A stretch of 64,000 nt of DNA from Plastoroseomonas arctica. GTDB lineage: Bacteria > Pseudomonadota > Alphaproteobacteria > Acetobacterales > Acetobacteraceae. The notes under the pieces are model-generated. The model searched no databases. It had not been told where the DNA came from and saw nothing but the letters and a program-made list of their open reading frames with translations. The stretch spans positions 1 to 64,000 of the forward strand of contig NZ_JAAEDH010000005.1 in assembly GCF_018128965.1 (NCBI RefSeq). Reading direction: 5' to 3'. The position numbers and the translations under genes are program-made. Below are positions 28,201 through 48,250 of this stretch, piece after piece. Every line of letters starts with the position of its first letter. The stretch's first letter is position 1.

Positions 28201-28521
28201 ACGCAGATCGCCGAGGTTGCCGTAATCCTCGTGCACGCCGCGATAGTCGGCAATGTCGTAGCCATCGTCGCGGCGCGGGCTCGGGTAGAAGGGCAGGAGC
28301 CAGATGGTGTCGACGCCGAGGTCGACGATGTAGTCGAGTTTTTGGAGCAAGCCGGGAAAATCGCCGATGCCGTCGCCATCGGCGTCGAAGAAGCTCTTGA
28401 TGTGCAGCTGGTAGATGACCGCGTCGCGATACCATTGCGGATCGCCGGCGCCGGCGATGACAGGCTCACGCAATGGCGCGACGCGCGGCTGCGCGGCTTC
28501 ACCATGAGGGGCGCCGCGCAT
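25225..28521 (-). CDS. treS: trehalose synthase-maltokinase fusion (TreS-Mak)
   Basis: A 1098-residue fusion. Residues 1 to about 570 are trehalose synthase (GH13), which interconverts trehalose and maltose. It has [12 protein letters not shown] (125-136), nucleophile D226 in [11 protein letters not shown], acid/base E268 in [11 protein letters not shown] and D334 in RNHDEL. Residues from about 605 to 1098 are maltokinase with an aminoglycoside-phosphotransferase fold: the cap segment [11 protein letters not shown]766 in VVIKILRR, catalytic HGDLHLGQ (H954, D956) and metal-binding D973 in VDFEGEP. Trehalose can thus be turned into maltose-1-phosphate by one protein, the donor for GlgE encoded immediately upstream. 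The start is the ATG overlapping the glgE stop (TGATG); the longer frame lies inside glgE. Confidence 0.95.
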
Positions 28522-31500
28522 CAAGCGGCCTCCGCCGGACGGATCCGATAGATGGCGAAGGGTCGCACCGCGGGATCGATGCGCAGCGATTGCCGCCGCC
28601 CCTGCCAGCGGAAGCGTTCGCCGGTGAAGAGATCTTCGACCTCGACCGAACCATCGTCGGGTAGCGACCATTGCCATAGCGGCAAGTCCACCGCGCTCTC
28701 CTGCACCTGATGCGGATCGAGGCTGACGGCGCAGAACACCACGTTCGAGCGGTCCGGCGTCGCCTTGCGATACCACAGCACCTGGTCGTTTGCCGCATCG
28801 TGGAATTCGAGCGTGAGGTGACTGCGCATGGCGGGATTGGTCTTTCGAATGATGTTCAGCCGCGCGATCTCGTCGACGATGTCGCCTTGCGCCCGGTCGG
28901 GCCATGCGCGCAGCTGGTATTTTTCCGAATTGAGATATTCCTCGCGGCCGGGAAGTGCAGCGGCCTCGCAATATTCGAAGCCCTGGTAGACACCCCATAG
29001 GCCGGACAGCGTGGCGGCCAGAGCTGCGCGGATGAGGTGCCCAGGACGGCCGCCAGTCTGCAGAAAGAAAGGATTGATATCGGGCGTGTTGACGAAGAAA
29101 TGCGGACGGAAGAAGTCGCGTGGCGCCGTGGTCGTCAGCTCGGTGAGATAGTCCGTGAGCTCCACCTTGGTGTTGCGCCAGGTGAAGTACGTGTAGCTCT
29201 GCGAGAAGCCGAGCTTGGCCAGGCGATACATCAGCTTCGGCCGCGTGAAGGCTTCGGCCAGGAACAACGCGTCCGGGTAGGCGGCACGCACCTCGGCGAT
29301 CATCCATTCCCAGAACGGCAAGGGCTTGGTGTGCGGATTGTCCACGCGGAAGCATCGCACGCCTTGCTCTGCCCAGAACAGCACGACATCGCGCAACGCC
29401 AGCCAGAGCGAGGGGATTGCGTCCTCGGCGTAGAAATCGACGTTGACGATGTCCTCGTACTTCTTCGGCGGGTTTTCCGCGGTGCGGAGCGATCCGTCGG
29501 GCCGCCAGTCGAACCAGCCCGGATGCGCCTTCAGCCATGGATGGTCGAGGCTGCACTGGATGGCGAAATCGATCGCCAGTTCCAAGCCATGCTCGGCGGC
29601 GGCCGCGCGCAGCCGGGCGAAGTCCTCGAGCGTGCCGAGCTCCGGATGGAGCGCGTCGTGGCCACCCTCGGCAGCGCCGATGCCGTACGGGCTTCCGGGA
29701 TCATCGGGCGCCGCGGTGAGCGAGTTGTTGCGGCCCTTCCGGGCTTTCATCCCGATCGGATGGATCGGCGGGAAATACAGCGTGTCGAACCCCATGGCCT
29801 GAATGCGGGGCAACTGGGCGATGACATCGGCGAAGGTGCCGTGGCGCTTTCCGTCGCCAGCCTGGCTGCGAGGGAACAACTCGTACCATGCCGCGAAGCC
29901 CGCTGCCGTGCGTTCCGAGTCGACGCCGTACTCGCCGCTCTGGGCGAGGAGGGGGCGGGGGTCGGCCGCAGCCATCAGCGCCGCCGTTTCCCCGGATTGA
30001 AGAACGGCCAAACGCTCTGCCTCGTCGGCCGCGAGCAGCCGCGTCGCCAGCGCCGCGAGGGGTCCGCTCTTGCCTTCCGCAGCCTTGGCCAAGAGGAGCC
30101 GGCCTTCTTCGAGCGACAGCGTCACCGGCACGCCCGCCTTGCTGTTCTTCGCGAGCCCATCGGCGAAACTCGCGAAGGCATCGGGCCATGCCTGAATGCG
30201 GAAGCGGTAGGCGCCCAGGCGAAGCAGAGGGAACTCCGCGAACCAGCGATCATTGCCCGAAGGTGCCAGACGAAGTTCCTGCCATTCGGTCTCGTCCGCC
30301 GCACGCCACTGCAGAACGGCGCCGATTTTCTCGTGGCCGTCGGTGATCAGGTCCACCTCGACGCGCACGTTTTCACCCAGCGTCCGCTTCACCGCGAAGC
30401 GTCCGTCATCCACGCTCGGCCGCTCGGCTTCGATGGCGACGCGCGGCGCCGCTGCGGCATCGCGCGCGCCATCCTGGCCGCGCGACGCGCCGAGGATCGA
30501 CGTCGGTGCGGGCAGGCTCAGCGTACGGACCTCGGCACCGTGAAGAGACAAGCGCCCGACGCCGGCGAGCGCTGGCGACACGTCAGGCGGCACGGCACCC
30601 GGGTCCAGCGTGAGGGTGCGGAGAGGGTCGGTGTTGGCGAGTATCAGCGTCGATTGCGACCCCGCTGCGGTGTGGCGCAGCAGTGCGAGGATGGCGGTAT
30701 CGGGGCCGCTCACAGGCATCAGCGAGGCTTTGGTCGTGCCGCGGCTCGCGATGGCGGCGTTCGCGTCGCGAAGGGCGCCGCTGAGGTCATAGGGCGCGTT
30801 TTCCTGCAGCCACTCCCACTCCTCGGCAGTGCCACGCGCCGCATCAAGGGGGTGCCGCGCGCCAAACTCGTACCCCATCGGAACGAGCATCCCGGCGCCC
30901 AAGTTGCCGGCAAGCGCGATCCGCAGGCGGGCTGCAGCTTCACGCTCGTTTTCCGTGTGGGAGGAAGCCGAGCGGGGCGCGCCCGGCGCCTCCAGCGTCG
31001 CGATGGCGGGTGCCACGGCGGCGAGGCGCCACGCCTCCTCAACATACCAGGCGCGACGGGCGTCCCACCACGCAAGGCTGTCGAATACGTTTGCGAACCC
31101 GGCGCCGGCGAGCGAGGCAAGTTCATCCGGCGGAAGGCCGGGCGTCCAGGCCAGAAAGCGGCAGTCCGAGTGTGATGATATGATGGCGGCCCAATCCGCA
31201 GCCGAAAGCAGCTGCGGCGTCAGGCAACGGAACCCCGTGACGCCCCGCGCCTTCGCGTCGGCAACATCCTTCTCGACGGACTCGCGGGACGCGTCGCGTT
31301 CGGCGTTATCGAAGCGAGGATCCGGAAGTTCGGCTGACGCACCAGGCTGTGGCGCAAGATCCTGGTAGATCGGGATTTTGCTGACGCGCGCCCGCTCATC
31401 CGGTGCGGCCAATATGATGGCATCGCAACCCAGTGACGCGGCGTGCGCCCCCATCTGCGTCCAATCGGCAACCATGCCCGGCACGACCCAATAATAGGAG

Positions 31501-31577
31501 GTCGGCACTGAGGCAACCTGGTCGCGTTGGGTCCGTCTACGCGTCGCCGCGCTTTTTAACCCGACGCTTTCTGCCAC
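28521..31577 (-). CDS. glgE: GlgE maltosyltransferase with a degenerate N-terminal GH13 domain
   Basis: Alpha-1,4-glucan:maltose-1-phosphate maltosyltransferase, which adds maltosyl units to the non-reducing ends of alpha-glucan. The GlgE core spans about residues 378-1018, matching the usual 650-700 residues: an N-terminal GlgE (DUF3416-type) domain near 378-500, nucleophile D746 in FRVDNPHTKP, acid/base E775 in FLAEAFTRP, and the Asp of NTPDI. Before it lie about 375 extra residues that align with the same barrel but lack the catalytic acids (see findings). The start is GTG 31577 with GAGG seven bases upstream. It is first in the trehalose/glucan operon, about 20-30 bases after an EcfG-like promoter. 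Its stop overlaps treS in TGATG. Confidence 0.94.
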   Translation of the reverse strand: MAESVGLKSAATRRRTQRDQVASVPTSYYWVVPGMVADWTQMGAHAASLGCDAIILAAPDERARVSKIPIYQDLAPQPGASAELPDPRFDNAERDASRESVEKDVADAKARGVTGFRCLTPQLLSAADWAAIISSHSDCRFLAWTPGLPPDELASLAGAGFANVFDSLAWWDARRAWYVEEAWRLAAVAPAIATLEAPGAPRSASSHTENEREAAARLRIALAGNLGAGMLVPMGYEFGARHPLDAARGTAEEWEWLQENAPYDLSGALRDANAAIASRGTTKASLMPVSGPDTAILALLRHTAAGSQSTLILANTDPLRTLTLDPGAVPPDVSPALAGVGRLSLHGAEVRTLSLPAPTSILGASRGQDGARDAAAAPRVAIEAERPSVDDGRFAVKRTLGENVRVEVDLITDGHEKIGAVLQWRAADETEWQELRLAPSGNDRWFAEFPLLRLGAYRFRIQAWPDAFASFADGLAKNSKAGVPVTLSLEEGRLLLAKAAEGKSGPLAALATRLLAADEAERLAVLQSGETAALMAAADPRPLLAQSGEYGVDSERTAAGFAAWYELFPRSQAGDGKRHGTFADVIAQLPRIQAMGFDTLYFPPIHPIGMKARKGRNNSLTAAPDDPGSPYGIGAAEGGHDALHPELGTLEDFARLRAAAAEHGLELAIDFAIQCSLDHPWLKAHPGWFDWRPDGSLRTAENPPKKYEDIVNVDFYAEDAIPSLWLALRDVVLFWAEQGVRCFRVDNPHTKPLPFWEWMIAEVRAAYPDALFLAEAFTRPKLMYRLAKLGFSQSYTYFTWRNTKVELTDYLTELTTTAPRDFFRPHFFVNTPDINPFFLQTGGRPGHLIRAALAATLSGLWGVYQGFEYCEAAALPGREEYLNSEKYQLRAWPDRAQGDIVDEIARLNIIRKTNPAMRSHLTLEFHDAANDQVLWYRKATPDRSNVVFCAVSLDPHQVQESAVDLPLWQWSLPDDGSVEVEDLFTGERFRWQGRRQSLRIDPAVRPFAIYRIRPAEAA

Positions 31578-31687: not shown

Positions 31688-32728
31688 CTACCGACGCGCG
31701 ACGCGGGCGCGCGGCTCCGGGCCGTGGCGCAGGGTGTCCACCGGCGCATCCATCGCGCGCTCCCACGCCAGGGCGCTCGCGACGATAGCGTCGAGATCAT
31801 CATGCTCCGGCCGCCACTGGAGCACCGATCGGATGCGGTCGTTGCACGCGACGAGGCTCGGCGGATCGCCCGCGCGACGCCCTTCCACCCTTAGCCTGAC
31901 GGGACGACGCGCCGCACGTTCCACCGCCCGCACGACCTCGTTCACCGAATGGCCACGTCCGTAGCCGCAATTCAGCACCTGGCTGCCGCCGCCCTCGCCC
32001 AGGTAGCGAAGCGCTGCGACATGCGCGCCCGCGAGGTCACTGACATGGATGTAGTCACGCACCCCCGTGCCATCTGGCGTGTCGTAATCCTGCCCGAACA
32101 CCGCCACCGCGTCGCGCCGGCCCAGCGCTGCCTCGCAGGCGACCTTGATGAGGTGCGTGGCATTGCGGTTGCGCGGTCCTGCGCGGCCGGCGAGGTCGGC
32201 GCCCGCGACGTTGAAGTAGCGTAGCGCCACCACCGCCATGTCGTTGGCCGATGCCACATCCTGCAGCAGCCGTTCCGCCGCAAGCTTGCTCGCGCCATAG
32301 GGGTTGATCGGGCGGCACGGCGTGTCCTCCGTCACCGGCGCCCCATCGGCGATGCCGTAGACCGCGGCCGTGGAGGAGAACACCAGCCGAGTGACGCGCT
32401 CGGCGACGCAGGCTTCCGCAAGGCTCAGGGTATTCGCGACATTGTTGCGCCAATAGCCCAAAGGCTTGGCGACGCTCTCGCTCACCACCAGCGAGCCCGC
32501 CAGGTGCACGACGGCGCCGACGCCGTGCCGGCGCAGGGTGCGACGCACCAGACCCGAATCGCCGGTCGACCCGCGCACCAGCGGCACCTCGACGGGCACG
32601 GCGTCGGCCACACCCGTGGAAAGATCGTCCAACACCACCACGGACATGCCGGAGTCGCGGAGGGCGAGGACCACATGGCTGCCGATGTAGCCGGCGCCGC
32701 CGGTGACCAGCACCGCAGCCTCGCTCAT
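31688..32728 (-). CDS. galE: UDP-glucose 4-epimerase-like SDR
   Basis: A 346-residue extended short-chain dehydrogenase that should interconvert UDP-glucose and UDP-galactose, or the N-acetyl forms. The NAD-binding motif is TGGAGYIG (9-16). The catalytic set is SST (118-120), with Y144 and K148 in the YGASK motif. The RYFNVAG and GVRDYIHVSDLA blocks near 190 and 226 are typical GalE. It is the last gene of the inositol operon, overlapping the PIG-L gene in ATGA. Its job there is probably to supply or tailor the nucleotide-sugar donor for the GT4 enzyme. The next gene, glgE, begins 110 bases downstream on the same strand behind its own promoter candidate. Confidence 0.88.
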   Translation of the reverse strand: MSEAAVLVTGGAGYIGSHVVLALRDSGMSVVVLDDLSTGVADAVPVEVPLVRGSTGDSGLVRRTLRRHGVGAVVHLAGSLVVSESVAKPLGYWRNNVANTLSLAEACVAERVTRLVFSSTAAVYGIADGAPVTEDTPCRPINPYGASKLAAERLLQDVASANDMAVVALRYFNVAGADLAGRAGPRNRNATHLIKVACEAALGRRDAVAVFGQDYDTPDGTGVRDYIHVSDLAGAHVAALRYLGEGGGSQVLNCGYGRGHSVNEVVRAVERAARRPVRLRVEGRRAGDPPSLVACNDRIRSVLQWRPEHDDLDAIVASALAWERAMDAPVDTLRHGPEPRARVARR

Positions 32729-33438
32729 CGCACGATACCGCGGGGCAGGCGTGCCGCGTCGCCCCGGAAGGATTCGACATCCCCCTCTGCGTTCAATGCC
32801 GCTTCGAGGCCCTTCATGCCGCCGAACTGGAACGGCAGCTGGGTTGTGTAGGCCGCGCAGGCGTGCAGCCGGGCCTGCGCGTCACCCTCGACCTGGCATT
32901 CCGCAAGACGCTTCATGTCAGCGTCGAACGGGCGGACGGACGCAGCGCGGGTGGCGTAGGGGAAATCGGTCCACCACAGGACGGGCCGCGCTTGCAGCCG
33001 CAGCGCCTGCACCAGCAGCACGTGGTCGACATGTCCGCCGACCGCCTGTGGGGCAAGCAGGAGGTCGGCTGGCCCGTCGGGCAACGTCTCGGCGAGGCCG
33101 TGCGCGGGGTCTTCCTCAAGCGGGCGACCGAACAGCGCCGCGGCATCCTGGTAGCCGCGATGCGGCGCCTCCGGCCAATTCAGCCACAGCGGCTCCGCGC
33201 CCAGCACGGCGCAGGCGGCCGCATCCTCGGCGCGGCGCAACGCCATGTAGTCCACATCCGGCGCGAGGCCCTTGTCGGTCTGGCAGGCCAGCGCGAAGCC
33301 GCTCGGCGCCGTGACGGAGCGGGTGAACACGGTGCAGACGGTCACCGACCAGCCTTGCTGCACCAGCCGCGCGAGCGTGCCGCCGCACGAGAAGGCGGCG
33401 TCATCCAGATGCGGTGACAAGGCCAGGGCGTGCGGCAT
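32725..33438 (-). CDS. PIG-L/LmbE family deacetylase
   Basis: A 237-residue member of the PIG-L family (MshB, BshB, LmbE), zinc enzymes that remove N-acetyl groups from GlcNAc-containing conjugates. The first zinc motif is SPHLDDAAFSCGG (H10, D13) and the second is GGHVDHVLL. I start at ATG 33438, which overlaps the stop of the upstream glycosyltransferase gene (TGATG) and places the zinc motif at the N-terminus as in relatives; 11 extra residues are possible upstream. Next to a GT4 transferase and inositol-phosphate synthase the arrangement recalls MshA/MshB of mycothiol synthesis, suggesting deacetylation of a GlcNAc-inositol or similar product. Substrate not established. Confidence 0.85.
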   Translation of the reverse strand: MPHALALSPHLDDAAFSCGGTLARLVQQGWSVTVCTVFTRSVTAPSGFALACQTDKGLAPDVDYMALRRAEDAAACAVLGAEPLWLNWPEAPHRGYQDAAALFGRPLEEDPAHGLAETLPDGPADLLLAPQAVGGHVDHVLLVQALRLQARPVLWWTDFPYATRAASVRPFDADMKRLAECQVEGDAQARLHACAAYTTQLPFQFGGMKGLEAALNAEGDVESFRGDAARLPRGIVR

Positions 33439-34664
33439 CACAACAGATGCGGCGCGGCGCGGAACCGACACGTCGCATCATGCGGCAGCTCCGTGTCCAT
33501 CGAGCGCGCACGCGGAACGGCGCCGCGCAACTGGCCGTAGACCTCCATGATCTGCCGGCCCACGGCTGCCCAGGAATAGGTTCGCCGGCACTCGTCGAGA
33601 GCCGCCTCGGCGAGGCGCCGGCGCAGCTCGGGCTCCTCGATCAGGCGACGCAGCGCGGCCGCTTGCGCCGGCACGTCGCCCGGCTCGACCAGCAGACCGT
33701 TCTCGCCATCGCGGAGGCAGTCCATCACCCCCACCGCGTGGCAGGACAGGCACGGCAGGCCGGACGCCATCGCCTCGAGGATGGTGTTGGAGAATCCCTC
33801 CGCATAGGTGGGAGAGACGAAGATGTCGCCCAGGGCATACACCGCGGGCGCATCCTCATAGGCCGCGTGGCCGGTGAAGCGGACATCAAGGCCGAGCTCG
33901 GCGGCCAGCGCCTGTGCGGCGTCATGATCGGGCCCGATGCCGGACACCACCGCCTCGAAGGCCACGCCGTCATCGCGGAGCAGACGCAGCGCGGCGAGGA
34001 AATCGAGCACGCCTTTCCGCCGGTCCACGCGGCCATGATAGAGCAGTCGCGGTATCGCTGCCGCCGCACCTGGCGCCTGCACCGGCTTGAAGCGCGTGAC
34101 ATCGACAGCGCCGGGCACGATGGTGAAGCGCTCCCGCGCCACGCCGAGCCGTTGCACGACTTCGCCGGCGAAGCTCTCGCAGCCGATGAGCAGGGCATCG
34201 GCGTTCTCGACCACGCGCAGCATGGCCTGCCGATGCGTCTCGCAGCACGAGCCCACCCAATGGCCGTCGCCGCCCTGGATGGACACCACGGCCGGGATGC
34301 CGAGCCGCTGCGCCGCGAGCAGCAACGTCCAGCCATTGGGATAGCCATACTGCGCATGCAGGATGTCGAAAGGGACCTTCGCGTGCTCGGCGAGGATGGT
34401 CTCCAGCATGTCGTCGACGTCGCGTTCGAAATCCGCGGGCGTGACCTCCTCGCCCACGGATCGCCGCCCCAGTACCGTGACGCCCTCGACGGCGGGCGGC
34501 GGACCGCCGCCATAGATGCGCGTGCCGGCCGCGTCGCCGCGATACTGGCTGACCATGGTCACGTCATGTCCGGCGGCCACCAGCTCCTGCAGCAGGTTCG
34601 CGGCATAGACGCTCATACCGCTGATGGCGGGAAAGAACCGGCGCGAGCAGAACAATACCCTCAT
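33438..34664 (-). CDS. GT4 family glycosyltransferase
   Basis: A 408-residue GT-B glycosyltransferase. The N-terminal Rossmann half opens with VLFCSRRFFPAISGMSVYA, with the Gly-rich acceptor-side loop of GT4 enzymes. The C-terminal half contains YHGRVDRRKGVLDFL (nucleotide-phosphate binding) and the E-x7-E signature EGFSNTILE. The last 20 residues after GAVPRA look like a non-conserved tail. The start at 34664 overlaps the isomerase stop in ATGA. There is no signal peptide, so it acts at the cytoplasmic face. With inositol-phosphate synthase in the same operon an MshA-like transfer of a sugar to inositol phosphate is plausible, but the family uses many donors and acceptors. Confidence 0.85.
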   Translation of the reverse strand: MRVLFCSRRFFPAISGMSVYAANLLQELVAAGHDVTMVSQYRGDAAGTRIYGGGPPPAVEGVTVLGRRSVGEEVTPADFERDVDDMLETILAEHAKVPFDILHAQYGYPNGWTLLLAAQRLGIPAVVSIQGGDGHWVGSCCETHRQAMLRVVENADALLIGCESFAGEVVQRLGVARERFTIVPGAVDVTRFKPVQAPGAAAAIPRLLYHGRVDRRKGVLDFLAALRLLRDDGVAFEAVVSGIGPDHDAAQALAAELGLDVRFTGHAAYEDAPAVYALGDIFVSPTYAEGFSNTILEAMASGLPCLSCHAVGVMDCLRDGENGLLVEPGDVPAQAAALRRLIEEPELRRRLAEAALDECRRTYSWAAVGRQIMEVYGQLRGAVPRARSMDTELPHDATCRFRAAPHLL

Positions 34665-35491
34665 GACCGGCACGCCTTCAGCCAGGCCATGGCGTCGGGC
34701 ACCATCGTGTGCGCGCGATGGCTCTCGCGCGAGAGCTCGACGCAGACCAGACCCTCGAAGCGGATCGCCTCGAGCGCATCGAGGCAGCCGGGGATGTCCA
34801 TGTCGCCCTCGCCGAACGGCAGGTGGGTGTGGTCGCCGCGGCGCATATCCTCGATGGCGACGGTGCCGACGACATCGGCGAATTCCTTGACGGCGGCGGC
34901 CGGCTCGCGCTCCTGCGTCACCAGGCAATGGCCGAGGTCGAGCGCCAGGCGCAGCTGCGGCAATCGACGTTGGAGCAGCAGCCAGTCGTCCAAGGTCTCG
35001 ACCAGCATCCCCGGTTCGGGCTCCAGCGCCGCGACCACGCCACTCGCTTCGGCATGAGCCAGCACGGCGGCGACGCCATCCGCGAGCCAGCCGGCGGCAT
35101 CGTCGCGATCCACACCGGGCAGCGGCACGCCGGCCCAGAACGACATCGCCTCCGCATCCAGGATCGCGCCGATGTCGATCGCCCGGTTGAGGAAGGCGAT
35201 GCGCCCGGCGCGCGCCTCGGGGGTGGGGGAGAGCAGGGTCGGCTCGTGCTTGCGGCGCGGGTCGAGCAGGTAGCGCGCGCCCGTCTCGATCACGCAGCCA
35301 AGCCCGTCGGCGCGCAGTCGTCGCGCGAGCGCCTCGGCGCGCTGCTGCCAGCCCTCCTCCATCGGGTCGAGGTGATGATGGTCGAGCGTGAGGGCCACCC
35401 CCGCATAGCCGGCATCGGCGATCAGGCCGATGGCATCGTCGAGCCGGTGATTGGCGGTGCCGTTGGTGTTGTAGGCATAGCGCAGCGTCAT
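34661..35491 (-). CDS. sugar phosphate isomerase/epimerase (xylose isomerase-like TIM barrel)
   Basis: A 276-residue protein of the AP-endonuclease-2/xylose-isomerase-like superfamily. Expected metal ligands are visible in EPEPGMLVETL (near 155-165), LDLGHC (near 184) and the EDMRRGDHTHLPFGEGDMD block (about 213-231), a hallmark of these isomerases and of inosose-type enzymes (IolE, IolH). The start at 35491 overlaps the oxidoreductase stop in ATGA. Pairing of a Gfo/Idh dehydrogenase with such an isomerase is a common module for oxidising and epimerising cyclitols or sugars, so in this operon it may modify the inositol ring or the attached sugar. The exact reaction cannot be read from the sequence. 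Confidence 0.8.
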   Translation of the reverse strand: MTLRYAYNTNGTANHRLDDAIGLIADAGYAGVALTLDHHHLDPMEEGWQQRAEALARRLRADGLGCVIETGARYLLDPRRKHEPTLLSPTPEARAGRIAFLNRAIDIGAILDAEAMSFWAGVPLPGVDRDDAAGWLADGVAAVLAHAEASGVVAALEPEPGMLVETLDDWLLLQRRLPQLRLALDLGHCLVTQEREPAAAVKEFADVVGTVAIEDMRRGDHTHLPFGEGDMDIPGCLDALEAIRFEGLVCVELSRESHRAHTMVPDAMAWLKACRS

Positions 35492-36486
35492 TGCGTGGCG
35501 GCTCCATAGGCGCGGTGCAGCAGGCGCATGGTGTGAAGATCGCGCGCCAGGCTGAAGGCGGGCTCCGGCGCGGCGAGCACATGGCGCGCGAAGGCCGCCA
35601 TCTGCCGGGTGAAGGGGGAGGTCTCGGCCTGCGGAACGGCCATGCGCGTGCGGATGCCGCTCGCGCCGCCGATGTGCCAGACGTCGCCGCCTGCGGTCTG
35701 GCCCATGGTGTTCTCGGCCAGCAGCTGCCCGGTGCTGCCGATCACCTCCAGGCGGCGGCGCGGCAGGCCCTCGGGGCAGTTGTAGGCGATGTGCAGCTGC
35801 GCGAGCACGCCGCGGGCGGTGCGCCCGATCAGCGCTGCCCCATCATCGACGGCGTAGTCCTGCACGCGCCGCTGCGTGAGCGCCGCCACCTCGACCAGCG
35901 GCTCGCCGGCGAGGAAGTCGACGAGGTCCAGGCCATGCGGTGCCAGGTCCATCATCGCGCCGCCGCCGGCGCGGGCCGGGTCCGCGCGCCAATTATCCGC
36001 CGCGAAGCCGGCGTCGACCCAGCACGCATAGACGATGCGGATGGCGGTGAGGGTGCCGATGGCGCCGCCGGCGATCGCATCGCGCATCGCCGCATGGGCA
36101 GGATGATGGCGCTGGTCGAAGGCGGTGCCGTAGGGAATGCCCGCGCGCGCGACGACGGAAGCCATCGCCTCGGCATCGGCCAGCGTGGCCGCCATGGGCT
36201 TCTCGCACAGCACGGGCTTGCCCGCCGCGGCGGCCGCCTCGACGCCTGAGCGGTGGAGATGGTTTGGCGTCGCGACATAGATCGCCTGCACAGCCGGGTC
36301 GTCGAGCATCGTCTCCAGATCGGCATGGGCACGTGCGCCCAGCACCTCTCCGGCGCGCCTCGCCTGCGGATCAGGGTCAGCGATGGCGGCGAGCGTGCCG
36401 CCCGACGCCAGCATCGCTGGCGCGGCGAAATCCCGCGCCACCCAGCCGAATCCCAGCACGCCCCAGGCCAGCCCCGACACGGTCAC
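35488..36486 (-). CDS. Gfo/Idh/MocA family NAD(P)-dependent oxidoreductase
   Basis: A 332-residue two-domain oxidoreductase. The Rossmann motif is GVLGFGWVARDF (about 9-20), and the catalytic EKP motif is present (CEKPMA, near residue 94). The C-terminal beta-sheet domain carries the expected NWRADPARAGGGAMMDLAPHG-type segment, whose DxxxH supplies the catalytic Asp and His. The start codon is GTG 36486 within a GTGA overlap with the methyltransferase stop. Relatives oxidise inositols (IolG), glucose or amino-sugar nucleotides at a ring hydroxyl. With inositol-phosphate synthase and a TIM-barrel isomerase in the same operon, an inositol or hexose ring oxidation is likely. Substrate unknown. 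Confidence 0.85.
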   Translation of the reverse strand: MTVSGLAWGVLGFGWVARDFAAPAMLASGGTLAAIADPDPQARRAGEVLGARAHADLETMLDDPAVQAIYVATPNHLHRSGVEAAAAAGKPVLCEKPMAATLADAEAMASVVARAGIPYGTAFDQRHHPAHAAMRDAIAGGAIGTLTAIRIVYACWVDAGFAADNWRADPARAGGGAMMDLAPHGLDLVDFLAGEPLVEVAALTQRRVQDYAVDDGAALIGRTARGVLAQLHIAYNCPEGLPRRRLEVIGSTGQLLAENTMGQTAGGDVWHIGGASGIRTRMAVPQAETSPFTRQMAAFARHVLAAPEPAFSLARDLHTMRLLHRAYGAATQ

Positions 36487-37598
36487 CAGCGCTCCGGCAG
36501 GGCGACCAGCTCGCGGCGGCGTGCCTGTTCGCGGAGGGCGGGTTGCGCCGCATCGAGGATGGCGCGCGACGGTGCGCTGGTCGTCTCGGGATAGGTTGCG
36601 CGAGACCCGTATTCGCGGCTGTAGCGCTCGCTCGGCCAGACGCGGCGCCCACCATCATCGTACAGCGGATTGCGCGACAGGGAGGTGCCCGACGCCGGCA
36701 GGGCGAGCCCACCCTGCACGGCACAAGCCGGTCGCAGGCCAGGGCCGGTCGCGATCGCGAAGGCCTCTGCGGCGGCGAGCGCCTCGCCGTGCGCAACCTT
36801 CGGCGCCCGGCCTGCGGCAAGGGCCTCGGTCAGCTCGGTATCATCGTAGAGCGCCGCGCCCGGGAACATGGCCGTGAGCTCTGTAGCCGTCATCGCGCTG
36901 CCGGTGGAAAAATTCGGCCAGTCCCGATTGTGCACGTGGCCGATCGCCAGGACGCCCAGTGGCGCGAGAAGGCGGTGCAGCCTGGCGAGGATCGCGGGCT
37001 TCGGCTCCAGGAAATAGAAGGCATCCTGGCAGGCGACGAGGTCGAAGGCTCCATCGGGCAGCGGCCAATCCTGCGCTGCGTCCATGCAGATCAGACGAGC
37101 CTCCGGCACCAGCCAATGCCGCGCGATCCAGAGCTTGGCGAAGACCACGTCGGCGCCGGTAACCGCCGCGCCGCGCAGCGCCAATTCGCGCAGGTGGTGC
37201 CCGATGCCGCAGGCGAGCTCGAACACCGAAGAGGGCGCCGGGCAATGCGCCTCGACCAGCGCGAGTCCGGCAAGGAAGGTCGGATCGGACCAGCGATGCG
37301 CGAAGTAATCCGCGACGGGTCCCCAGGCGAGCAGCGCCATCGCCTGCCGCAGCGTCAGCGTCTCGCGCCGGGTGACCAGCTCGCGCAGCGCTACGGGGTC
37401 GGCCGTGGGGCCCTGCCACCAGTCATCCTGGTCGCCGAGCAGCAGCACCAGCGCACCGGTGCGGTCGCCGTTATCCAGCCGCTCCAGCGCCGCCGCTGCC
37501 AGGGCCTCCCGCCCGGTGCGGAGAAAGGCGATCCCGTCCGGCGCCGGCCAGCGACGTCCCTGTGCGTCGCGCACCGAGTGTGCGGTGTCCGCGATCAC
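36483..37598 (-). CDS. class I SAM-dependent methyltransferase with unusual flanking regions
   Basis: A 371-residue protein. The central domain (about 120-230) is a Rossmann methyltransferase: motif I is VFELACGIG (125-133), an acidic residue follows motif II, and LVACQDAFYFLEP is the motif IV/post-IV region. Residues 1-100 form a separate N-terminal region reminiscent of the Trm112-like leader found on some methyltransferases but without zinc cysteines. Residues about 290-371 form an Arg/Tyr-rich tail (NPLYDDGGRRVWPSERYSREY) I do not recognise. The start is GTG 37598, within a GTGA overlap with the HD-like gene; the open frame extends upstream inside that gene. It probably methylates an intermediate or the final conjugate. 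Target atom unknown. Confidence 0.78.
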   Translation of the reverse strand: MIADTAHSVRDAQGRRWPAPDGIAFLRTGREALAAAALERLDNGDRTGALVLLLGDQDDWWQGPTADPVALRELVTRRETLTLRQAMALLAWGPVADYFAHRWSDPTFLAGLALVEAHCPAPSSVFELACGIGHHLRELALRGAAVTGADVVFAKLWIARHWLVPEARLICMDAAQDWPLPDGAFDLVACQDAFYFLEPKPAILARLHRLLAPLGVLAIGHVHNRDWPNFSTGSAMTATELTAMFPGAALYDDTELTEALAAGRAPKVAHGEALAAAEAFAIATGPGLRPACAVQGGLALPASGTSLSRNPLYDDGGRRVWPSERYSREYGSRATYPETTSAPSRAILDAAQPALREQARRRELVALPERW

Positions 37599-38515
37599 GC
37601 GGCGAGGCCCATGCGGTCGAGCAGCGCATCCTGGAACGGCTTGATCGGCCCGGCGTGGACCAGCGCCATCTCGTTCTGCAGATAGGCCATTGTGGTGCTG
37701 GCGGCGCGCAGGTGATGTTCCATCTGCAGGACGCGGTCGAGCGTGTCGGCGGCGTGGAACGCCTGGCCCTCGGCGGTCTCGACGTCGGGCAGGATGCGGC
37801 ACGCCTCGGCGACGCGGCTTCCCAGCGCCGGGGTCAGCTCCCCGAGTGCGAGTTCGGTGGCGCCGGAGATGGCGGGCGCCAGCCACTCGCCCAGCAAGGT
37901 CTCGCCGGCGAAACCGGCATCGGCGAGGAGGGCGTTGTGGAGGTGATGCGCGAGGGAGGCCAGGAAGACGCAGCCGGTATCGGCACCGGTCTCCGGCGCC
38001 AGCAGGACGGCCGCTACGGCGACGCAGAGGCAATGCTCGGCATGGTTCTCGGGCGGCTCCAGCATCAGCCTGGAGCGGCCGGGGGTGGTGGCACCGGCAC
38101 GGGGCTGCCGCGCCAGCCGCTCGACGAAGGCGGGCACCGCCATGGACACGCCCGGATCCGCGTCATCGTCGAGGTGCACCTGAGGCGAGCCGCCGCGCAA
38201 CCAGCGCCGCGCCGGCGCATCGAGCAGAACCGCGGCAGCGTCGAACCCGTTTCCCAGAATCTCCCGCACCGCCTCGCCCGGCAGGCCCGCGGCGTGCAGG
38301 CTGGCGGCATCCAGATCGCCCAGACGCGTCGCAACCAAGGCCCGCGCCGTGACGTCGCGCGCGACCGAGTTCGTCTCCTCGCCGGCCACAAGCCGCCGCC
38401 ACGCCAAAGCAAAAAGCCGCTCGGCGACCGATCCCGTCTGGTTGGCCGACCGCACGCGTTTGAGGTTGCCGATCTCGCGCAGCAGCGGCAGCCAGTGCGG
38501 CGAGGGCAGGTTCAC
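37595..38515 (-). CDS. HD-domain-like protein, possible phosphohydrolase
   Basis: A 306-residue, probably cytoplasmic protein. Residues about 150-275 have the spacing of an HD metal-dependent phosphohydrolase: NHAEHC (H158, H161), LAHHLHNA (H190, H191, H193) and HAADTLDRV (D257). The usual HD doublet reads HH here, so metal binding may be altered. Residues 1-100 are helical with no recognised domain. The start is GTG 38515 inside a GTGA overlap with the inositol-phosphate synthase stop. An inositol-phosphate or pseudodisaccharide-phosphate phosphatase is otherwise missing from the operon, so dephosphorylation is a reasonable but unproven role. It could instead be a structural or regulatory HD relative. 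Confidence 0.6.
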   Translation of the reverse strand: MNLPSPHWLPLLREIGNLKRVRSANQTGSVAERLFALAWRRLVAGEETNSVARDVTARALVATRLGDLDAASLHAAGLPGEAVREILGNGFDAAAVLLDAPARRWLRGGSPQVHLDDDADPGVSMAVPAFVERLARQPRAGATTPGRSRLMLEPPENHAEHCLCVAVAAVLLAPETGADTGCVFLASLAHHLHNALLADAGFAGETLLGEWLAPAISGATELALGELTPALGSRVAEACRILPDVETAEGQAFHAADTLDRVLQMEHHLRAASTTMAYLQNEMALVHAGPIKPFQDALLDRMGLAA

Positions 38516-39711
38516 GCGGCGGTATCCGCCATCAGCCAGCTGTGCAGCATGCGTTCCTGAACCGGGAAGGCGTGCTCGGGCGCGTCGCCGCGGGCCGTCA
38601 TCGGCGCCTTGAAGAACAGTGACAACTGCTCCTGCGGACCGGCCTCGCCGCGCTGCTGCGCGAGGTCGAGAACGCGCGCGATCTCGAGGACCAGCGGCGC
38701 CGCGAGCACGCTGTCCTTGCACAGGAAATTGACCTTGATCTGCATGCGCTGACCGAGGAAGCCGGTGACGTCGATATTGTCCCAGGCTTCCTTGTCGTCG
38801 CCACGCGGGCGGTAGTAGCGGATGTCGACCACATGATCCTCGACCGGGTAGCCGAGGATGGAGTCGAGGACGCTGCCCTTGGTGCCGAGCTTCGACTTCA
38901 GGCTGTCGGGGTCCTGGAGCGCCTCACCATCGCGATTGCCGAGGATGTTGGTCGAGAACCAGCCATCGACATGCAAGGCGCGCGCCTTGAACGCTGGGGC
39001 AAGCACGGTCTTGATCAGTGTCTGACCGGTCTTGCCATCCTTGCCGGCGAGCGGGACGCCGTGCCGCTGCGCGAGTTCGACGAGAGCCGGCACCTCCGCC
39101 GCCGTGGATGGGGTGAAATTGCCGTAAGGCACGCCCGCGGAAATCGCGGCATAGGCGTAGAGCATCGCGGGCCCGATCGCTGCGTCATCCGCATCCAGCC
39201 CGCGCTCGAACGCTTCGGGCGAGGCCCAGGCGTCGCTGGCCTGCGGCGTGCGCTCGGTCGAGGCGAGATTGATCATGACGACGCTGTCGAAATCGCCCTC
39301 GTCGCGGAACCGGCGCAGGTCATCGGTGATGGCGTCGATCGCCGCGCGATGGCCCGCGGCGGTGTGCATGTTCGCACCCTCGATCCGGCGGCAGTAGGCG
39401 GCACTCGCCACACCCGCCCAGGGACGGATCGCCGAGAGGGCGGGCTCGACACTGGCCATCTGGTCGGCAGGCAACACGCGATGTTCGACGGCCGCATCAG
39501 CCAGTGACTGTGCGTTGAGATCCCAGCCACGCAAGTAGAGATCCTCGTATTGCACCATCCGCGGAACCGAAAGATGGGCGAGCGGCAGTCCATCCATGCG
39601 ATTGGTGCCAAGCCGCAGAATTTCGAGCCCTGCTGCTGCTGTCGTTGCGACGGCACCACCCATGCCGATGACTGCCACGCCGATCTTTCGGCGCTTCGCG
39701 ATCACGTTCAT
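38512..39711 (-). CDS. ino1: inositol-3-phosphate synthase (myo-inositol-1-phosphate synthase)
   Basis: NAD-dependent cyclisation of glucose-6-phosphate to inositol phosphate. The protein has 399 residues from ATG 39711, which has GAGG nine bases upstream; another ATG lies three codons earlier but directly abuts that site. Family landmarks: N-terminal Rossmann motif VIGMGGAVATT, GKDGKTGQTLIKT (the GDD-K-SGQT counterpart that binds phosphate and NAD), WFSTNILGNRDGEAL, and YRPRGDDKEAWDNIDVTGFLG. It is first in an eight-gene operon with GTGA/ATGA couplings, 30-40 bases after a sigma70-type promoter. Free-living bacteria with Ino1 usually use it for inositol lipids or thiols (mycothiol); which product is made here is unknown. 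Confidence 0.92.
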   Translation of the reverse strand: MNVIAKRRKIGVAVIGMGGAVATTAAAGLEILRLGTNRMDGLPLAHLSVPRMVQYEDLYLRGWDLNAQSLADAAVEHRVLPADQMASVEPALSAIRPWAGVASAAYCRRIEGANMHTAAGHRAAIDAITDDLRRFRDEGDFDSVVMINLASTERTPQASDAWASPEAFERGLDADDAAIGPAMLYAYAAISAGVPYGNFTPSTAAEVPALVELAQRHGVPLAGKDGKTGQTLIKTVLAPAFKARALHVDGWFSTNILGNRDGEALQDPDSLKSKLGTKGSVLDSILGYPVEDHVVDIRYYRPRGDDKEAWDNIDVTGFLGQRMQIKVNFLCKDSVLAAPLVLEIARVLDLAQQRGEAGPQEQLSLFFKAPMTARGDAPEHAFPVQERMLHSWLMADTAA

Positions 39712-39864: not shown

Positions 39865-41118
39865 TTACTGCTGAAACCGGCGCACCATGCTGGCGCTGCC
39901 CAGGGCCAGCAGGCCGTAGCCCGCGCCCACCGCAAGGGCGAGCGGCACCACGCCGAGCGCGGCGGCGGGCCCCGCGACAGCGGAACCGAGCACGTCACCC
40001 AGGTTGAGCGCGGCCATGTACAGCGCGAACCGGCTCGCCGCGACCGCGCCGCGGCTCGCATGCATCACCGCCGGCGCGAGAGCCACGAACGACAACGCGG
40101 ATGTGATGCCGGACAGCGACAGCGCCGCTGGTCCGGCCCAGCCGCCGCTCAGGCCGAGCACCGCGCCGGACGCCACATGCGCCGCGGCGCTGGCGCCGAG
40201 AAGCCATCCGAGCGCGCGCGCGGGCCCGACGCGGTCCGTCCATCGCCCGACAAGCCAGGCGCCGAGCGTGCCCGAGGCCAGGCCGATCATCCCCTGCGCC
40301 GTCGAGAGCGCGCCGGCGGTCCAGCCCTCCTGCTGGATCAGGTAGACCCCGAGAGGGAGGCGAAACAGCGCCCCGCAGAAATCCTGCAACAGGCAGAACA
40401 GGAGAAGGGCCAGATGAACCGGCCGGACCATGCCGCGGCCAAGCTCCGCGACCAGCGCACCGATGCGTGACCCTGTCGCGACCGTCCGCCGGCGCAGCGA
40501 CAGACACGCATCATCGGGTGCTTCGCGCACCAGCAGCGGCATGATCGCTGCCAGCAAGCCAAGGCACAGCAGCACCATCGCAGCCTGCGCGAGTCCGGCT
40601 TGCGGCAGCACCCAGGCAAAAACTACGGCGCCGACGGCGATGCCTGAAACCAGGCCGGCTCGCGTGCACGCCGTGGCCGCACCCATCTGATCGGTGGGCG
40701 TGTGATCGATGATCATGGCGTCGGTCGCGGTGTCCATCAGCGCGGCGCAGAGGCTGTGCAGCGTGAAGATCGCGGCGATGGTGGAGAGTTCCCCCGGTCG
40801 CGCCTCGCCAAGCCACAACAGGCAGGATTGCGCGGCGAGCGAGCCCGCCATGGCGGTCATCACCCAGAAGCGCCGCCGGCCCATGCGCATGCCGCCGAAC
40901 CGATCCACCACCGGGCCCCACAAGGGCTGCAGGATCCACGGCAGGCCGATGGCCGCGGCATAGGCGCCGAGCTCGGCCGTGCTGGCGCCGAGGCTCGCCG
41001 CATGGTTGGGCAAGGCCGTCAGGGCGAAGCCGGCGACGATTCCCTGGTAGAAATACAAGGTCGCGACGAGGGACAGCCGCCAGCTGGGTGAGGCCAGCAG
41101 CGGCCCTGGCGCGCGCAT
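39865..41118 (-). CDS. MFS transporter
   Basis: A 417-residue inner-membrane protein with about 12 hydrophobic segments in the 6+6 pattern of the major facilitator superfamily. The loop between helices 2 and 3 carries the MFS motif A-like GPVVDRFGGMRMGRR, and its repeat in the second half reads GRWTDRVGPAR. The start at ATG 41118 lies ten bases after the YcaO stop, with a GGACGG site; a longer frame runs into ycaO. Segments such as YFYQGIVAGFALTALPNHAA resemble the AmpG/muropeptide and sugar-conjugate transporters, but the substrate cannot be assigned. It is last in the MBL-YcaO-MFS operon and may export or import the product. Confidence 0.85.
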   Translation of the reverse strand: MRAPGPLLASPSWRLSLVATLYFYQGIVAGFALTALPNHAASLGASTAELGAYAAAIGLPWILQPLWGPVVDRFGGMRMGRRRFWVMTAMAGSLAAQSCLLWLGEARPGELSTIAAIFTLHSLCAALMDTATDAMIIDHTPTDQMGAATACTRAGLVSGIAVGAVVFAWVLPQAGLAQAAMVLLCLGLLAAIMPLLVREAPDDACLSLRRRTVATGSRIGALVAELGRGMVRPVHLALLLFCLLQDFCGALFRLPLGVYLIQQEGWTAGALSTAQGMIGLASGTLGAWLVGRWTDRVGPARALGWLLGASAAAHVASGAVLGLSGGWAGPAALSLSGITSALSFVALAPAVMHASRGAVAASRFALYMAALNLGDVLGSAVAGPAAALGVVPLALAVGAGYGLLALGSASMVRRFQQ

Positions 41119-41128
41119 CAGCCGTCCG

Positions 41129-42595
41129 TCATGCCGGAACCGGCAGGCCCTTCCGCCGCAGCCGCTCGCGCTGTGCGGAGAAGGTGCCGGGCTCGCGATA
41201 CAGCGGGTAGAGGCTGCCGACCAGCCGATCCGCGAGCGCAGCATCGAACCAGGCCGGCCCGCCGGAGCGGGCCTCGTCCTCCGGCCGCAGCAGGACACGC
41301 TTTGCACCCGCGCGCGGAGCATCGACCACCAGCGGATCCTGGCGCGCGCGGAGCCTGCGCACGCCGCGCCAGCCGATGCGGTGATAGCTCATCGTCTCGG
41401 CCTCCAGACCCGGCACCACGACCTTGACCACACGCACCGGATCACCAGGCGGCGAGCAATCGACGTAGAACACCTCGAGCCCCTCGGCGGCGAGGCGGCT
41501 GGTCAGTAAATCGAGGGTCGCCACCGACGTCGGCACCGGCGCGCTCGGCAGATCCGAAAGCTTCTGGCGGGATGATTCGGAGAAGACCGTATCGGCGAGC
41601 CGTGCCTGCAGTGCGGCCGCGTCGTCATCCAGCCAAGCCGTCATCGCCGCCAGGGCGCGGGGTTCCTCTTCCTCGACATCCAGCAGCGCAAGCTGCGGCG
41701 CGGTGTAGCTCTCGGGCAGATGCCGGAGGAGCAACTCGATCGGACCATGCGTCGCGGCCTTGCGCGCGCGCGATCCGCAGAATTCCAGCAGCGCCTTGCG
41801 CAGCGCACGGTCCCGGTCGGGGTGGGCCGCCTCGCCGCACGAGGTGACCTGGATCGGCACCGCCGGGCCGCCGCGATCGGGGCCCACCACGTAGAGGTTG
41901 CTGATGCCGAAATCGGTGGAAGCGAGCTTGATCGTGACGTCGATGTCGAGCGCGCTCAGCTTTGCCAACAGCGCGCGCACCTCGGGCTCGGGCACGGAAT
42001 CGGGCTCGACCACGAGCCCTTGATCCAGCGCGCGAAATCCGACCACGTTCCCGTCTCGCTGCAGGGCTTCCATGATGCCGTGGGCGATGGCGTGTTCGAG
42101 ATCAAGCCCGGCACCAAGGCCGCTCGTGATCGGCGTGATCAGCTGCGCCGGCCCGTGGACCATCTGGTAGCCGTAGGCGGCCACCCACTCGACGGGCAGC
42201 AAGGTGGTCTCGCCATCGGTCCAGCGCCGCGCCTCCGTCCAATCCAGCGTCATGTCGGCGGTGTAGTGGCTGCCCGCCGGCAGACAGAGGGTGAGCGGGT
42301 CGATCACGGGACGCTTCGCCGAAAGCGCGGCGTAGCTGCCGCGGATCGGCGTGATGCGCTCGACCTGCTGTTCGGCGTGGATTTCCTCGCAGAGCTCGCC
42401 CAAGGCGCCGACCTCGGCCTGGATGGCCGAGAAGCCGTAGCCATAGCCGGTCGTCGCGGGCTTGCCCGGCGCGATCAGGTTGGCCTGCACGACCGGTATA
42501 CCGGTCCTGTCCAGCGCATCGATGCGGAACACCGTCAGCTCGCCAAGACCTGCCAAGCTGTCGCGGAATGCCTGAGCCACGGCGTCCAGAGTCAT
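41129..42595 (-). CDS. stand-alone YcaO-domain protein
   Basis: A 488-residue member of the YcaO superfamily, ATP-dependent enzymes that activate amide bonds to form azolines, thioamides or amidines in peptides; E. coli YcaO itself is linked to RimO. The nucleotide/metal motifs are in place: the Ser/Glu-rich helix FSAIQAEVGALGELCEE (55-71), SGLGAGLDLEHAIAHGIMEA followed by LQRD (158-181, including E176 and R180), and AHPDRDRALRKALLEFCGSR (257-276). The C-terminus is LPVPA, only a partial version of the PxPxP tail of azoline-forming YcaOs. No TfuA, dehydrogenase or obvious precursor peptide is nearby. It overlaps the metallo-beta-lactamase gene in ATGA, so the two are probably functional partners. 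Confidence 0.85.
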   Translation of the reverse strand: MTLDAVAQAFRDSLAGLGELTVFRIDALDRTGIPVVQANLIAPGKPATTGYGYGFSAIQAEVGALGELCEEIHAEQQVERITPIRGSYAALSAKRPVIDPLTLCLPAGSHYTADMTLDWTEARRWTDGETTLLPVEWVAAYGYQMVHGPAQLITPITSGLGAGLDLEHAIAHGIMEALQRDGNVVGFRALDQGLVVEPDSVPEPEVRALLAKLSALDIDVTIKLASTDFGISNLYVVGPDRGGPAVPIQVTSCGEAAHPDRDRALRKALLEFCGSRARKAATHGPIELLLRHLPESYTAPQLALLDVEEEEPRALAAMTAWLDDDAAALQARLADTVFSESSRQKLSDLPSAPVPTSVATLDLLTSRLAAEGLEVFYVDCSPPGDPVRVVKVVVPGLEAETMSYHRIGWRGVRRLRARQDPLVVDAPRAGAKRVLLRPEDEARSGGPAWFDAALADRLVGSLYPLYREPGTFSAQRERLRRKGLPVPA

Positions 42596-43497
42596 CGCAC
42601 GTTCCCCGCCATGTTGCGCAGGTCATCGATCGGAATGCGGCGAACGCCCGGGCGTCGCGCCAGCTGGTCATCGAGCGAGGCCAGCGCCATCGCGGTGGTG
42701 ATGCCCGGCGCGTGCTCGAAGGGCGTGCAGATGGTGTCGAAATCCAGGGGCGCGATGACATCGCGATAGTGACGCAGTTCAGAGGGCGACAATGGAATGT
42801 CCTTGTGGAACGCCTTGTGGGAGGAGAGCGCGAGGTTGTTGCCCGCCGCATCCTGGTCGACCTTGAACGCGTCGCCGCAGAACAGGGTACGCCGGCCGGA
42901 ATCATGGAGCGCCGCCTGGCCTTCATAGTGGCCGCCGACATGGTGCAGCACCTGGCCGGGACGAAGCTCCAGCGTATCGTCGTAGGGCCAGGTCACGCGG
43001 AACGCCTTCGTCATCCGTAGATCATCCTTCTGAATGGCGAGGATTTCCGGCTTGAACACCTCCTGCAGCTGCCACAGCGCGCCGTAGCCATGGCAATGCG
43101 ACGCGGCGAGGAACCGGATGCCGCCGAGCCTGCGGATCTCCTCGAGCATTGGCGGCGTGTAGTAGGGCGCCGCCTCGAAGGCCGTGTTGCCGTCGGGATG
43201 CAGCAACAGCCACCCCGTGCCGTTGAGGCCGAAGCCAGGGCTGGTGGTGAACGCCACCATGTCGCCGGGCAGGCGACGCCAATCGCCCGTAAGCCGGGCC
43301 GCGACTTCGCCTTCGGTCAGGAAATGCCAGCCATCTTCGGGCAGGTCGTTGCGCGTGTCCTCACAGACGGGACAAGCGGCTGGCTTGAAATGCTTCTGCC
43401 AGAAGCCGCAATGGGCGCAGGCCCAGGGGGTCAGCGCCATGTCGAGCGCGATTTGCGGTTGGCCTGTGAACCCTGTGCCAAGAGGCTGCTCCATCAT
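42592..43497 (-). CDS. metallo-beta-lactamase-fold hydrolase with N-terminal zinc-ribbon/rubredoxin-like knuckle
   Basis: A 301-residue protein. Residues 27-45 hold two CxxC pairs (CAHC at 27-30, CPVC at 42-45), a rubredoxin- or zinc-ribbon-like knuckle. The rest is a metallo-beta-lactamase fold with SHCHGYG (H134, H136), HHVGGHYEG (H190) and FCGDAF (D209). The canonical HxHxDH motif is reduced to HxHxxG, so one metal site is probably missing or rearranged. The start is uncertain: two tandem ATGs at 43497/43494, or one at 43440 just before the CxxC motif. It leads an operon with YcaO and an MFS transporter, behind an EcfG-like promoter. Redox or hydrolytic role unknown. Confidence 0.8.
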   Translation of the reverse strand: MMEQPLGTGFTGQPQIALDMALTPWACAHCGFWQKHFKPAACPVCEDTRNDLPEDGWHFLTEGEVAARLTGDWRRLPGDMVAFTTSPGFGLNGTGWLLLHPDGNTAFEAAPYYTPPMLEEIRRLGGIRFLAASHCHGYGALWQLQEVFKPEILAIQKDDLRMTKAFRVTWPYDDTLELRPGQVLHHVGGHYEGQAALHDSGRRTLFCGDAFKVDQDAAGNNLALSSHKAFHKDIPLSPSELRHYRDVIAPLDFDTICTPFEHAPGITTAMALASLDDQLARRPGVRRIPIDDLRNMAGNVR

Positions 43498-46821: not shown

Positions 46822-46842
46822 AATACTTTGTCCCTCAGACGT

Positions 46843-46968
46843 CGTGCGAAGGCACGCCTTCGGCATGACGCGCGCGCTGCGCGCGCTTGGCTTCGCGCCC
46901 TGTCAGGGCGTGAATGGTTGGCAGGGTGGTCCGGACGTATCCGGCCGCTGTGCGGCCAGTGCGTCCGG
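46843..46968. repeat. cluster of palindromes between adaptor and pump genes
   Basis: Three separable inverted repeats crowd the 160-base spacer. (a) CGAAGGC (46847-46853) / GCCTTCG (46856-46862), embedded in a longer imperfect palindrome with arms like CGTCGTGC and GGCATGACG. (b) A 10-bp stem with one G-U pair, arms 46892-46901 and 46905-46914. (c) A two-tier stem: CCGGACG (46931-46937) with CGTCCGG (46962-46968), and inside it GGCCGC (46943-46948) with GCGGCC (46952-46957). They resemble REP-type intergenic palindromes, or RNA structures that set the adaptor:pump ratio by processing or attenuation. Confidence 0.6.
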
Positions 46969-46981
46969 GGCAGCGAAAGGC

Positions 46982-48229: not shown

Positions 48230-48250
48230 TGCCATTCTCCGAGGGCGGAT

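Follow-up and report, generated by a model that had tools for sequence, protein, structure and literature searches.

A rearranged inositol, glycosyltransferase and YcaO gene cluster in Plastoroseomonas arctica as a candidate pathway to an aminoglycoside-like molecule

Several described systems share part of their gene content with the locus reported here, a gene cluster on the minus strand of a 64,000-nucleotide stretch of Plastoroseomonas arctica DNA (contig NZ_JAAEDH010000005.1, positions 1 to 64,000; hereafter the window). The mycothiol pathway (Ino1, MshA, MshB, MshC, MshD) has in common with it an inositol phosphate synthase, a GT4 glycosyltransferase of the MshA neighborhood and a PIG-L deacetylase, the latter two also being shared with the bacillithiol pathway (BshA, BshB, BshC). 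Ebo clusters of the Ino1 type likewise hold Ino1 beside or near a TIM-barrel isomerase, and the thiazole/oxazole-modified microcin (TOMM), azoline and thioamide clusters resemble the locus in their YcaO domain. From its enzyme families we propose, with belief and doubt about equally balanced, that the cluster would form a dedicated pathway to a small inositol-derived, aminoglycoside-like molecule, an inositol-aminosugar pseudodisaccharide bearing a group installed by its YcaO enzyme. No description of the cluster was found in a full-text literature search, with subscription papers mostly outside its reach.

Evidence for a dedicated pathway comes from the conservation of the cluster. Scanning GTDB contigs with its HD-fold protein returned 111 relatives, the best 80 of which form our public set (63 loci of the Methylobacterium group, 11 Roseomonas-like and six from Sphingomonas). 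Genes for Ino1, the HD-fold protein, a methyltransferase, a Gfo/Idh oxidoreductase, YcaO, the TIM-barrel enzyme, GT4 and PIG-L are all present in 74 of these 80 loci, and in every one of the 74 complete loci they lie in identical order on a single strand, bearing out an earlier first-pass annotation of this DNA in its claim of a coherent, undescribed pathway involving Ino1. Five of the six incomplete loci end near a contig end; the other, L042, is considered below. That annotation had recognized eight genes, seven of which co-occur in the neighborhoods of these 74 loci; its eighth, galE, does not (matched in 6/80 public loci, and in three of seven loci of relatives), and two genes further upstream, encoding YcaO and a metallo-β-lactamase (MBL)-fold protein, were missed. 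YcaO and MBL belong to the core, which numbers about nine genes, and galE is peripheral. YcaO is counted as core because it was found with the other cluster genes in those 74 loci; it was matched in 76 of the 80, the remaining four being cut by contig ends. MBL is linked to the cluster in 17 of the 80 public loci and in none of the 63 from the Methylobacterium group. Nine further loci were fetched from related genomes. Two were omitted: L105, which has no cluster, and L107, where a contig of 3.9 kb carries ino1, the HD gene and part of the methyltransferase gene. Among the seven counted, the six complete ones all show the same order and one is cut at a contig end; by coordinates, one of the seven (L103, genome G026) comes from the same genome as public locus L037. 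In genome G405 the HD gene is in two pieces (L106, 9447-10312), through either decay or sequencing error. As a separate observation, the gene after PIG-L belongs to one family in 39 of the 81 loci that were compared (31 Methylobacterium-group, eight Roseomonas-like); one member of this family is a uracil-DNA glycosylase (UDG; PF03167; L050, 17626-18411).

Co-occurrence was assessed in a sample of 100 related genomes, our own included. The HD protein was matched in nine, eight strongly and one weakly (G017, E 1e-9), the last being treated as negative as no cluster match was found around the corresponding locus, L105. A strong MBL match (E 1e-78 or better) is present in all eight strongly HD-positive genomes and in none of the other 92, with the next best match in any related genome at E 1e-22 (Fisher 5e-12, uncorrected for shared ancestry). 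MBL need not be adjacent: in G019 the cluster lacks it and the gene is clearly unlinked on another contig, in G028, whose contigs are too short for linkage to be judged, it again sits on a separate contig, and in five genomes of genus g278, inferred from gene arrangement to be Methylobacterium, it lies away from the cluster at 41-44% identity. Full-length Ino1 follows the same pattern (7/8 HD-positive relatives, the contig of the eighth stopping before ino1, and 0/92 others), seven of the 92 having no more than matches that are both weak and incomplete (E 1e-11 to 1e-14). The cluster is rare overall: the HD profile found it in three of 385 genomes across the class, and a stringent GT4 search in six of 398 across the phylum, our own genome being counted in both.

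Four copies of the cluster were found in plasmid records, from Roseomonas haemaphysalidis, Methylobacterium aquaticum, M. bullatum and Hymenobacter volaticus. The last of these is an air isolate belonging to the Bacteroidota, and its nearly complete plasmid copy holds ino1, HD, Gfo/Idh, MBL, YcaO, TIM, GT4 and PIG-L; no methyltransferase match was found in it. Its Gfo/Idh and GT4 genes are each split in two (L114, 13732-14780 and 18001-19232), again by decay or sequencing error, and its HD protein has no Pfam match at 0.001. In midpoint-rooted trees with long branches, the Hymenobacter Ino1 and TIM proteins group with the alphaproteobacterial ones, apart from those of ebo clusters (support 100/100 and 100/99), and transfer between phyla is the likely explanation for this copy. 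Next to the Hymenobacter copy, but on the other strand, is a gene for BshB1, the bacillithiol deacetylase (L114, 20167-20901), and the R. haemaphysalidis plasmid copy is adjoined by mdoH and two adjacent genes of the spore photoproduct lyase family (L115, 16961-20632).

Within the window, the eight genes from ino1 to galE all lie on the minus strand (39711-31688) without internal stops, with successive overlaps of 4, 4, 4, 4, 4, 1 and 4 nt at their seven junctions. This confirms the earlier description of eight families on one strand with junction overlaps of 1-4 nt, and the family assignments agree with both Pfam and NCBIfam. Because long open reading frames (ORFs) come cheaply in this GC-rich window, which has 114 of at least 170 residues, and are weak proof alone, we took domain matches and conservation as evidence. 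The genes encode myo-inositol-3-phosphate synthase (ino1, 38512-39711; NAD_binding_5 199.7 bits, Inos-1-P_synth 114.9 bits), the HD_3-fold protein (37595-38515), an S-adenosylmethionine-dependent methyltransferase (36483-37598; Methyltransf_11, 53 bits), the Gfo/Idh/MocA oxidoreductase (35488-36486; Pfam, and NCBIfam IolG at 126.3 bits, cut-off 355), the TIM-barrel isomerase/epimerase of ebo-associated type (34661-35491; AP_endonuc_2, 118.7 bits), the GT4 glycosyltransferase (33438-34664; Glyco_trans_1_4), the PIG-L N-deacetylase (32725-33438; PIG-L 55.5 bits, searched with a longer start at 33471) and the UDP-sugar 4-epimerase galE (31688-32728; TIGR01179, 417.8 bits, cut-off 262.3), which is coupled here and peripheral elsewhere. 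The unit extends upstream of ino1 on the same strand to a major facilitator superfamily (MFS) transporter, weakly RhtX/FptX-like (39865-41118; MFS_1; TIGR02718 67.5 bits, cut-off 356), the YcaO-family ATP-dependent enzyme (41129-42595; YcaO 187.5 bits) and the MBL-fold protein with its N-terminal CxxC...CxxC stretch (42592-43497; Lactamase_B 23.5 bits, cut-off 22.7). MBL and YcaO overlap by 4 nt, and the only gaps inside the unit are one of 10 nt, computed by hand, and the 153 nt between MFS and ino1. The window therefore carries a rearranged version of the cluster, with MBL-YcaO placed in front. The MFS gene is lineage-specific, being matched in five of the 80 public loci and found immediately upstream of ino1 only in L010 and L104.

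In the pathway we propose, Ino1, whose closest solved structure is 7nwr, would by homology convert glucose 6-phosphate to inositol 3-phosphate; the TIM-barrel enzyme may then rearrange the cyclitol or a keto form of it, with Gfo/Idh supplying an oxidation or reduction. GT4 would attach an N-acetyl-hexosamine from which PIG-L would take off the acetyl group. YcaO could use ATP to activate an oxygen of amide type and so introduce nitrogen or sulfur, which would give an amidine, a thioamide or an azoline; the MBL protein is its presumed constant partner. The HD-fold protein is probably a metal enzyme with changed chemistry, the methyltransferase a putative dispensable tailoring step, and the MFS protein may transport the product. 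Beyond the gene content, order, co-occurrence, protein families and two-phylum presence that are observed, these reactions are assigned by analogy, most closely for Ino1 and more loosely for the other enzymes. Several points weigh against this reading. The Acetobacteraceae carrier L042 has no ino1 match in 10 kb upstream. Gfo/Idh, with 1,5-anhydrofructose reductase 2glx as its closest solved structure, is equally close to anhydrofructose reductase and to inositol dehydrogenase, and its substrate need not be an inositol ring. The group activated by YcaO is not evident, because an amino acid ligase and an obvious amide donor are both missing from the conserved genes, and the cluster could serve two processes. 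In a separate line, a defence system was rejected as a candidate function, a PADLOC search with nine of the proteins at 1e-5 having given no match except one to the methyltransferase.

YcaO enzymes act mostly on peptides, and one alternative is that a peptide or protein is the substrate of YcaO and MBL, in the manner of a ribosomally synthesized and post-translationally modified peptide (RiPP) or of McrA thioamidation, with the sugar genes making an attached decoration. The YcaO profile is nearest to MJ1094 (E 3e-25), which we take to be a methanogen thioamidation enzyme, and then to the azoline enzyme LynD (E 3e-8). The general domain model is matched (TIGR00702, 77 bits, cut-off 75.65), but unlike in the TOMM and thioamide clusters no subfamily or equivalog cut-off is reached, either for McrA thioamidation (TIGR03266, 95.2 bits, cut-off 365) or for the SagD type (TIGR03604, 99.8 bits, cut-off 219.25), and the unit holds no recognized precursor or partner. 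Azoline-type YcaO proteins end in PxPxP, an ending not common to the 12 C-termini compared here. There is also little room for a precursor gene, with genes overlapping and just the two gaps given above; a search for short ORFs with cross-group matches returned 246, and the 15 listed all lie downstream of PIG-L, where UDG often follows. Beyond its weak Lactamase_B match, the MBL protein matched nothing in NCBIfam and no solved structure at E 0.01. We regard modification of a peptide or protein as unlikely. For Roseomonas mucosa, a survey of the Acetobacteraceae lists one YcaO gene cluster and classes it as RiPP (PMC8776678); this may be a copy of the present cluster.

Decoration of envelope glycolipid, lipopolysaccharide or capsule is similarly improbable in our estimation. 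It would accommodate GT4, the galE of the window and the mdoH adjoining the cluster on one plasmid, as well as a gene for a membrane protein of LPG_synthase_TM type lying near 55 Methylobacterium-group loci (one member identified). Against it, galE is the exception across the public set, and no envelope-polymer gene was recognized in the families common to the three groups, some neighboring families being unidentified.

The first-pass annotation had seen in Ino1, GT4 and PIG-L the core logic of mycothiol, with an end product other than mycothiol itself. GT4 does fall in the MshA/BshA neighborhood, its nearest solved structures being Tll1590, MshA and BshA, but the protein scores just 95.6 bits against the MshA model (TIGR03449, cut-off 462.5). 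A nearly invariant SIQGGDGHWVGSCCETHR loop occupies the position of the MshA acceptor loop, and most of the inositol-phosphate contacts appear not to be kept: for the MshA acceptor residues, which we take to be N25, K78, Y110, H133/T134 and R154 (residue types fitting the sequence), Y is retained, N is replaced by S, K and H/T are not retained and R is off by one in the alignment. Ino1 reaches 43.5 bits with the mycothiol equivalog (TIGR03450, cut-off 638). The proposed likeness of PIG-L to MshB did not hold, its closest solved relatives being Dbv21 and Orf2, which deacetylate N-acetylglucosamine (GlcNAc) in glycopeptide antibiotics; those systems differ in turn, as Pfam finds no nonribosomal peptide synthetase among the 11 proteins of the unit. 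The MshC model found one match in the genome, at 274.8 bits (cut-off 485.1), and the same model gives matches in 14/14 control genomes, as expected of its relative cysteinyl-tRNA synthetase (CysRS), which upholds the view that the product is not mycothiol. For bacillithiol, GT4 falls short of BshA (TIGR03999, 78.8 bits, cut-off 273.7) and PIG-L of BshB1 (24.7 of 182.5 bits) and BshB2 (18.6 of 195.25 bits); BshC (PF10079) has no match in the genome, listed as 99% complete, its model matching in 3/14 control genomes. Judged by its sequence, the cluster is thus neither the mycothiol nor the bacillithiol pathway, because equivalog cut-offs fail, there is no MshC-level match and no BshC, and PIG-L is nearest to the glycopeptide deacetylases. 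It further differs from mycothiol in its additional YcaO, MBL, HD, TIM and Gfo/Idh genes and from bacillithiol in having Ino1. A low-molecular-weight thiol could still be made along such lines if an unrelated enzyme, perhaps YcaO, added the cysteine, a scheme for which the joint occurrence of Ino1, GT4 and a deacetylase and the BshB1 gene beside the Hymenobacter copy speak; given the scores above, and as we know of no YcaO that ligates cysteine, we consider it decidedly unlikely.

The relationship to ebo-type clusters is of a different kind. Relatives of the TIM protein occur in 34 plasmid records, with an Ino1 match within 7 kb in 31 of them by search and in two more by annotation, and the six records opened besides the four cluster copies all hold ebo-type clusters. 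Four from Streptomyces contain Ino1, a UbiA prenyltransferase, TIM, EboA, TatD, EboE and a phosphatase/phosphodiesterase; that of Gemmatirosa runs TatD-phosphodiesterase-UbiA-Ino1-TIM, and the archaeon Natronococcus has a similar gene set. The window TIM protein is 45-51% identical to the bacterial ebo-type proteins, with motifs common to it and those of Streptomyces and Gemmatirosa, and 30.6% identical to that of Natronococcus. Its predicted model (mean predicted local distance difference test, pLDDT, 90.9) has a ketose-epimerase fold (best Z 30.6, root-mean-square deviation (rmsd) 2.0, 254 residues aligned), an assignment that does not account for the shared residues H221/H223. A phosphodiesterase role for it was considered (CbiR 24.8 bits, cut-off 105), the fold search favoring ketose epimerases. 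The ebo operon has been proposed to yield an isoprenoid-cyclitol compound (PMC5133447), and a relative of EboC farnesylates quinolines in vitro (PMC9235831); by a word count, inositol does not occur in two ebo papers (PMC5133447, PMC6282210). We infer that Ino1 and TIM constitute a cyclitol front end common to both kinds of cluster, and that glycosylation here takes the place of ebo prenylation, since this cluster, unlike ebo, has GT4, PIG-L, YcaO, MBL, HD, Gfo/Idh and mostly a methyltransferase. That it is instead an ebo variant, in which the ebo genes have been exchanged for others and the prenyl-cyclitol product is unchanged, is highly improbable, for despite the shared Ino1, TIM and TIM motifs none of the unit's 11 proteins matches UbiA, TatD or an EboF-type phosphatase/phosphodiesterase in Pfam, and the annotation of the first two Streptomyces ebo clusters examined shows no counterpart of GT4 or PIG-L.

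The HD-fold protein had initially been suggested to perform a dephosphorylation. It is a real HD_3 relative (27.3 bits, cut-off 22.5), and in family and fold it belongs with the YfbR/HDDC2-type phosphohydrolases: its predicted model (pLDDT 90.8) aligns in VIA-align to HDDC2 (4l1j; Z 14.2, rmsd 3.3, 169 aligned) and YfbR (2pau; Z 12.3, rmsd 3.9, 164 aligned). The structural search suggested for it in the first pass thus gave an HDDC2/YfbR-like result, although helical models can reach Z 14 without true kinship and the Foldseek E is just 0.1. HD phosphohydrolases usually carry an HD metal pair and a catalytic Glu in an HDxxE signature, and these residues are absent from the protein with positions paired by eye. 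What it has instead is an HHxHN motif (H190, H191, H193, N194), found without exception in the 87 sequences compared, from the window and 86 loci; H158, H161, D257, D260 and H287 are likewise invariant. Simple dephosphorylation is therefore doubtful, because the invariant HHxHN replaces the usual HD motif. Neither MIOX nor PhnZ is among the structural matches listed, which does not exclude an oxygenase type.

Within the family of the window, reaction-centre genes (PF00124 over cut-off) occur in all eight strongly HD-positive genomes and in 12 of 51 other HD-tested ones (Fisher 6e-5), a sixtieth genome, G801, without such genes being outside the HD comparison. A wider check covered L106 and 49 loci of the public set, 50 in total, with 49 genomes searchable, and found reaction-centre genes in 34 of the 49 carriers (31/32 Methylobacterium-group, 2/10 Roseomonas-like and 0/6 Sphingomonas, plus G405). 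A strict link to phototrophy fails outside the window's family and was rejected. An EcfG-like pattern (GGAAC-N15-18-CGTT), which would mark a general stress promoter, was found upstream of ino1 in none of 85 cases (shuffled mean 0.66); a looser pattern, in 50/85, had no control and was not used. Several carriers are named leaf isolates or air-derived, an uncounted impression from names and sources.

A more far-reaching form of the proposed inositol-aminosugar pathway is a tentative possibility, on the improbable side. The product would represent a new type of protective metabolite, a pseudodisaccharide of inositol and glucosamine with a thioamide, amidine or azoline installed by the first YcaO to act on a free small glycoside; an MBL partner would assist, along with an HD-fold enzyme whose HHxHN metal site is new. 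Plasmids would have carried the cluster between Alphaproteobacteria and Bacteroidota, and its product would perhaps protect against sunlight, oxidants or drying. If the proposed pathway is right, many Methylobacterium species (63 loci of the group here) would make an undescribed inositol-derived compound, YcaO chemistry would reach beyond peptides, the unsolved ebo pathway would be tied to an aminoglycoside-like branch through its Ino1 and TIM front end, and the HD-fold protein would provide an enzyme whose active site is unusual.

On the downstream side, galE is adjoined on the minus strand by genes for GlgE and for a fusion protein resembling trehalose synthase/maltokinase, with alpha-amylase, maltogenic amylase C-terminal and Mak_N_cap domains, so that positions 25225-31577 of the window hold a glucan locus of GlgE type; GlgE was matched in none of the 80 public loci. 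Upstream of the cluster, positions 43630-48235 encode a resistance-nodulation-division (RND) efflux pump (ACR_tran) and an HlyD-type adaptor.

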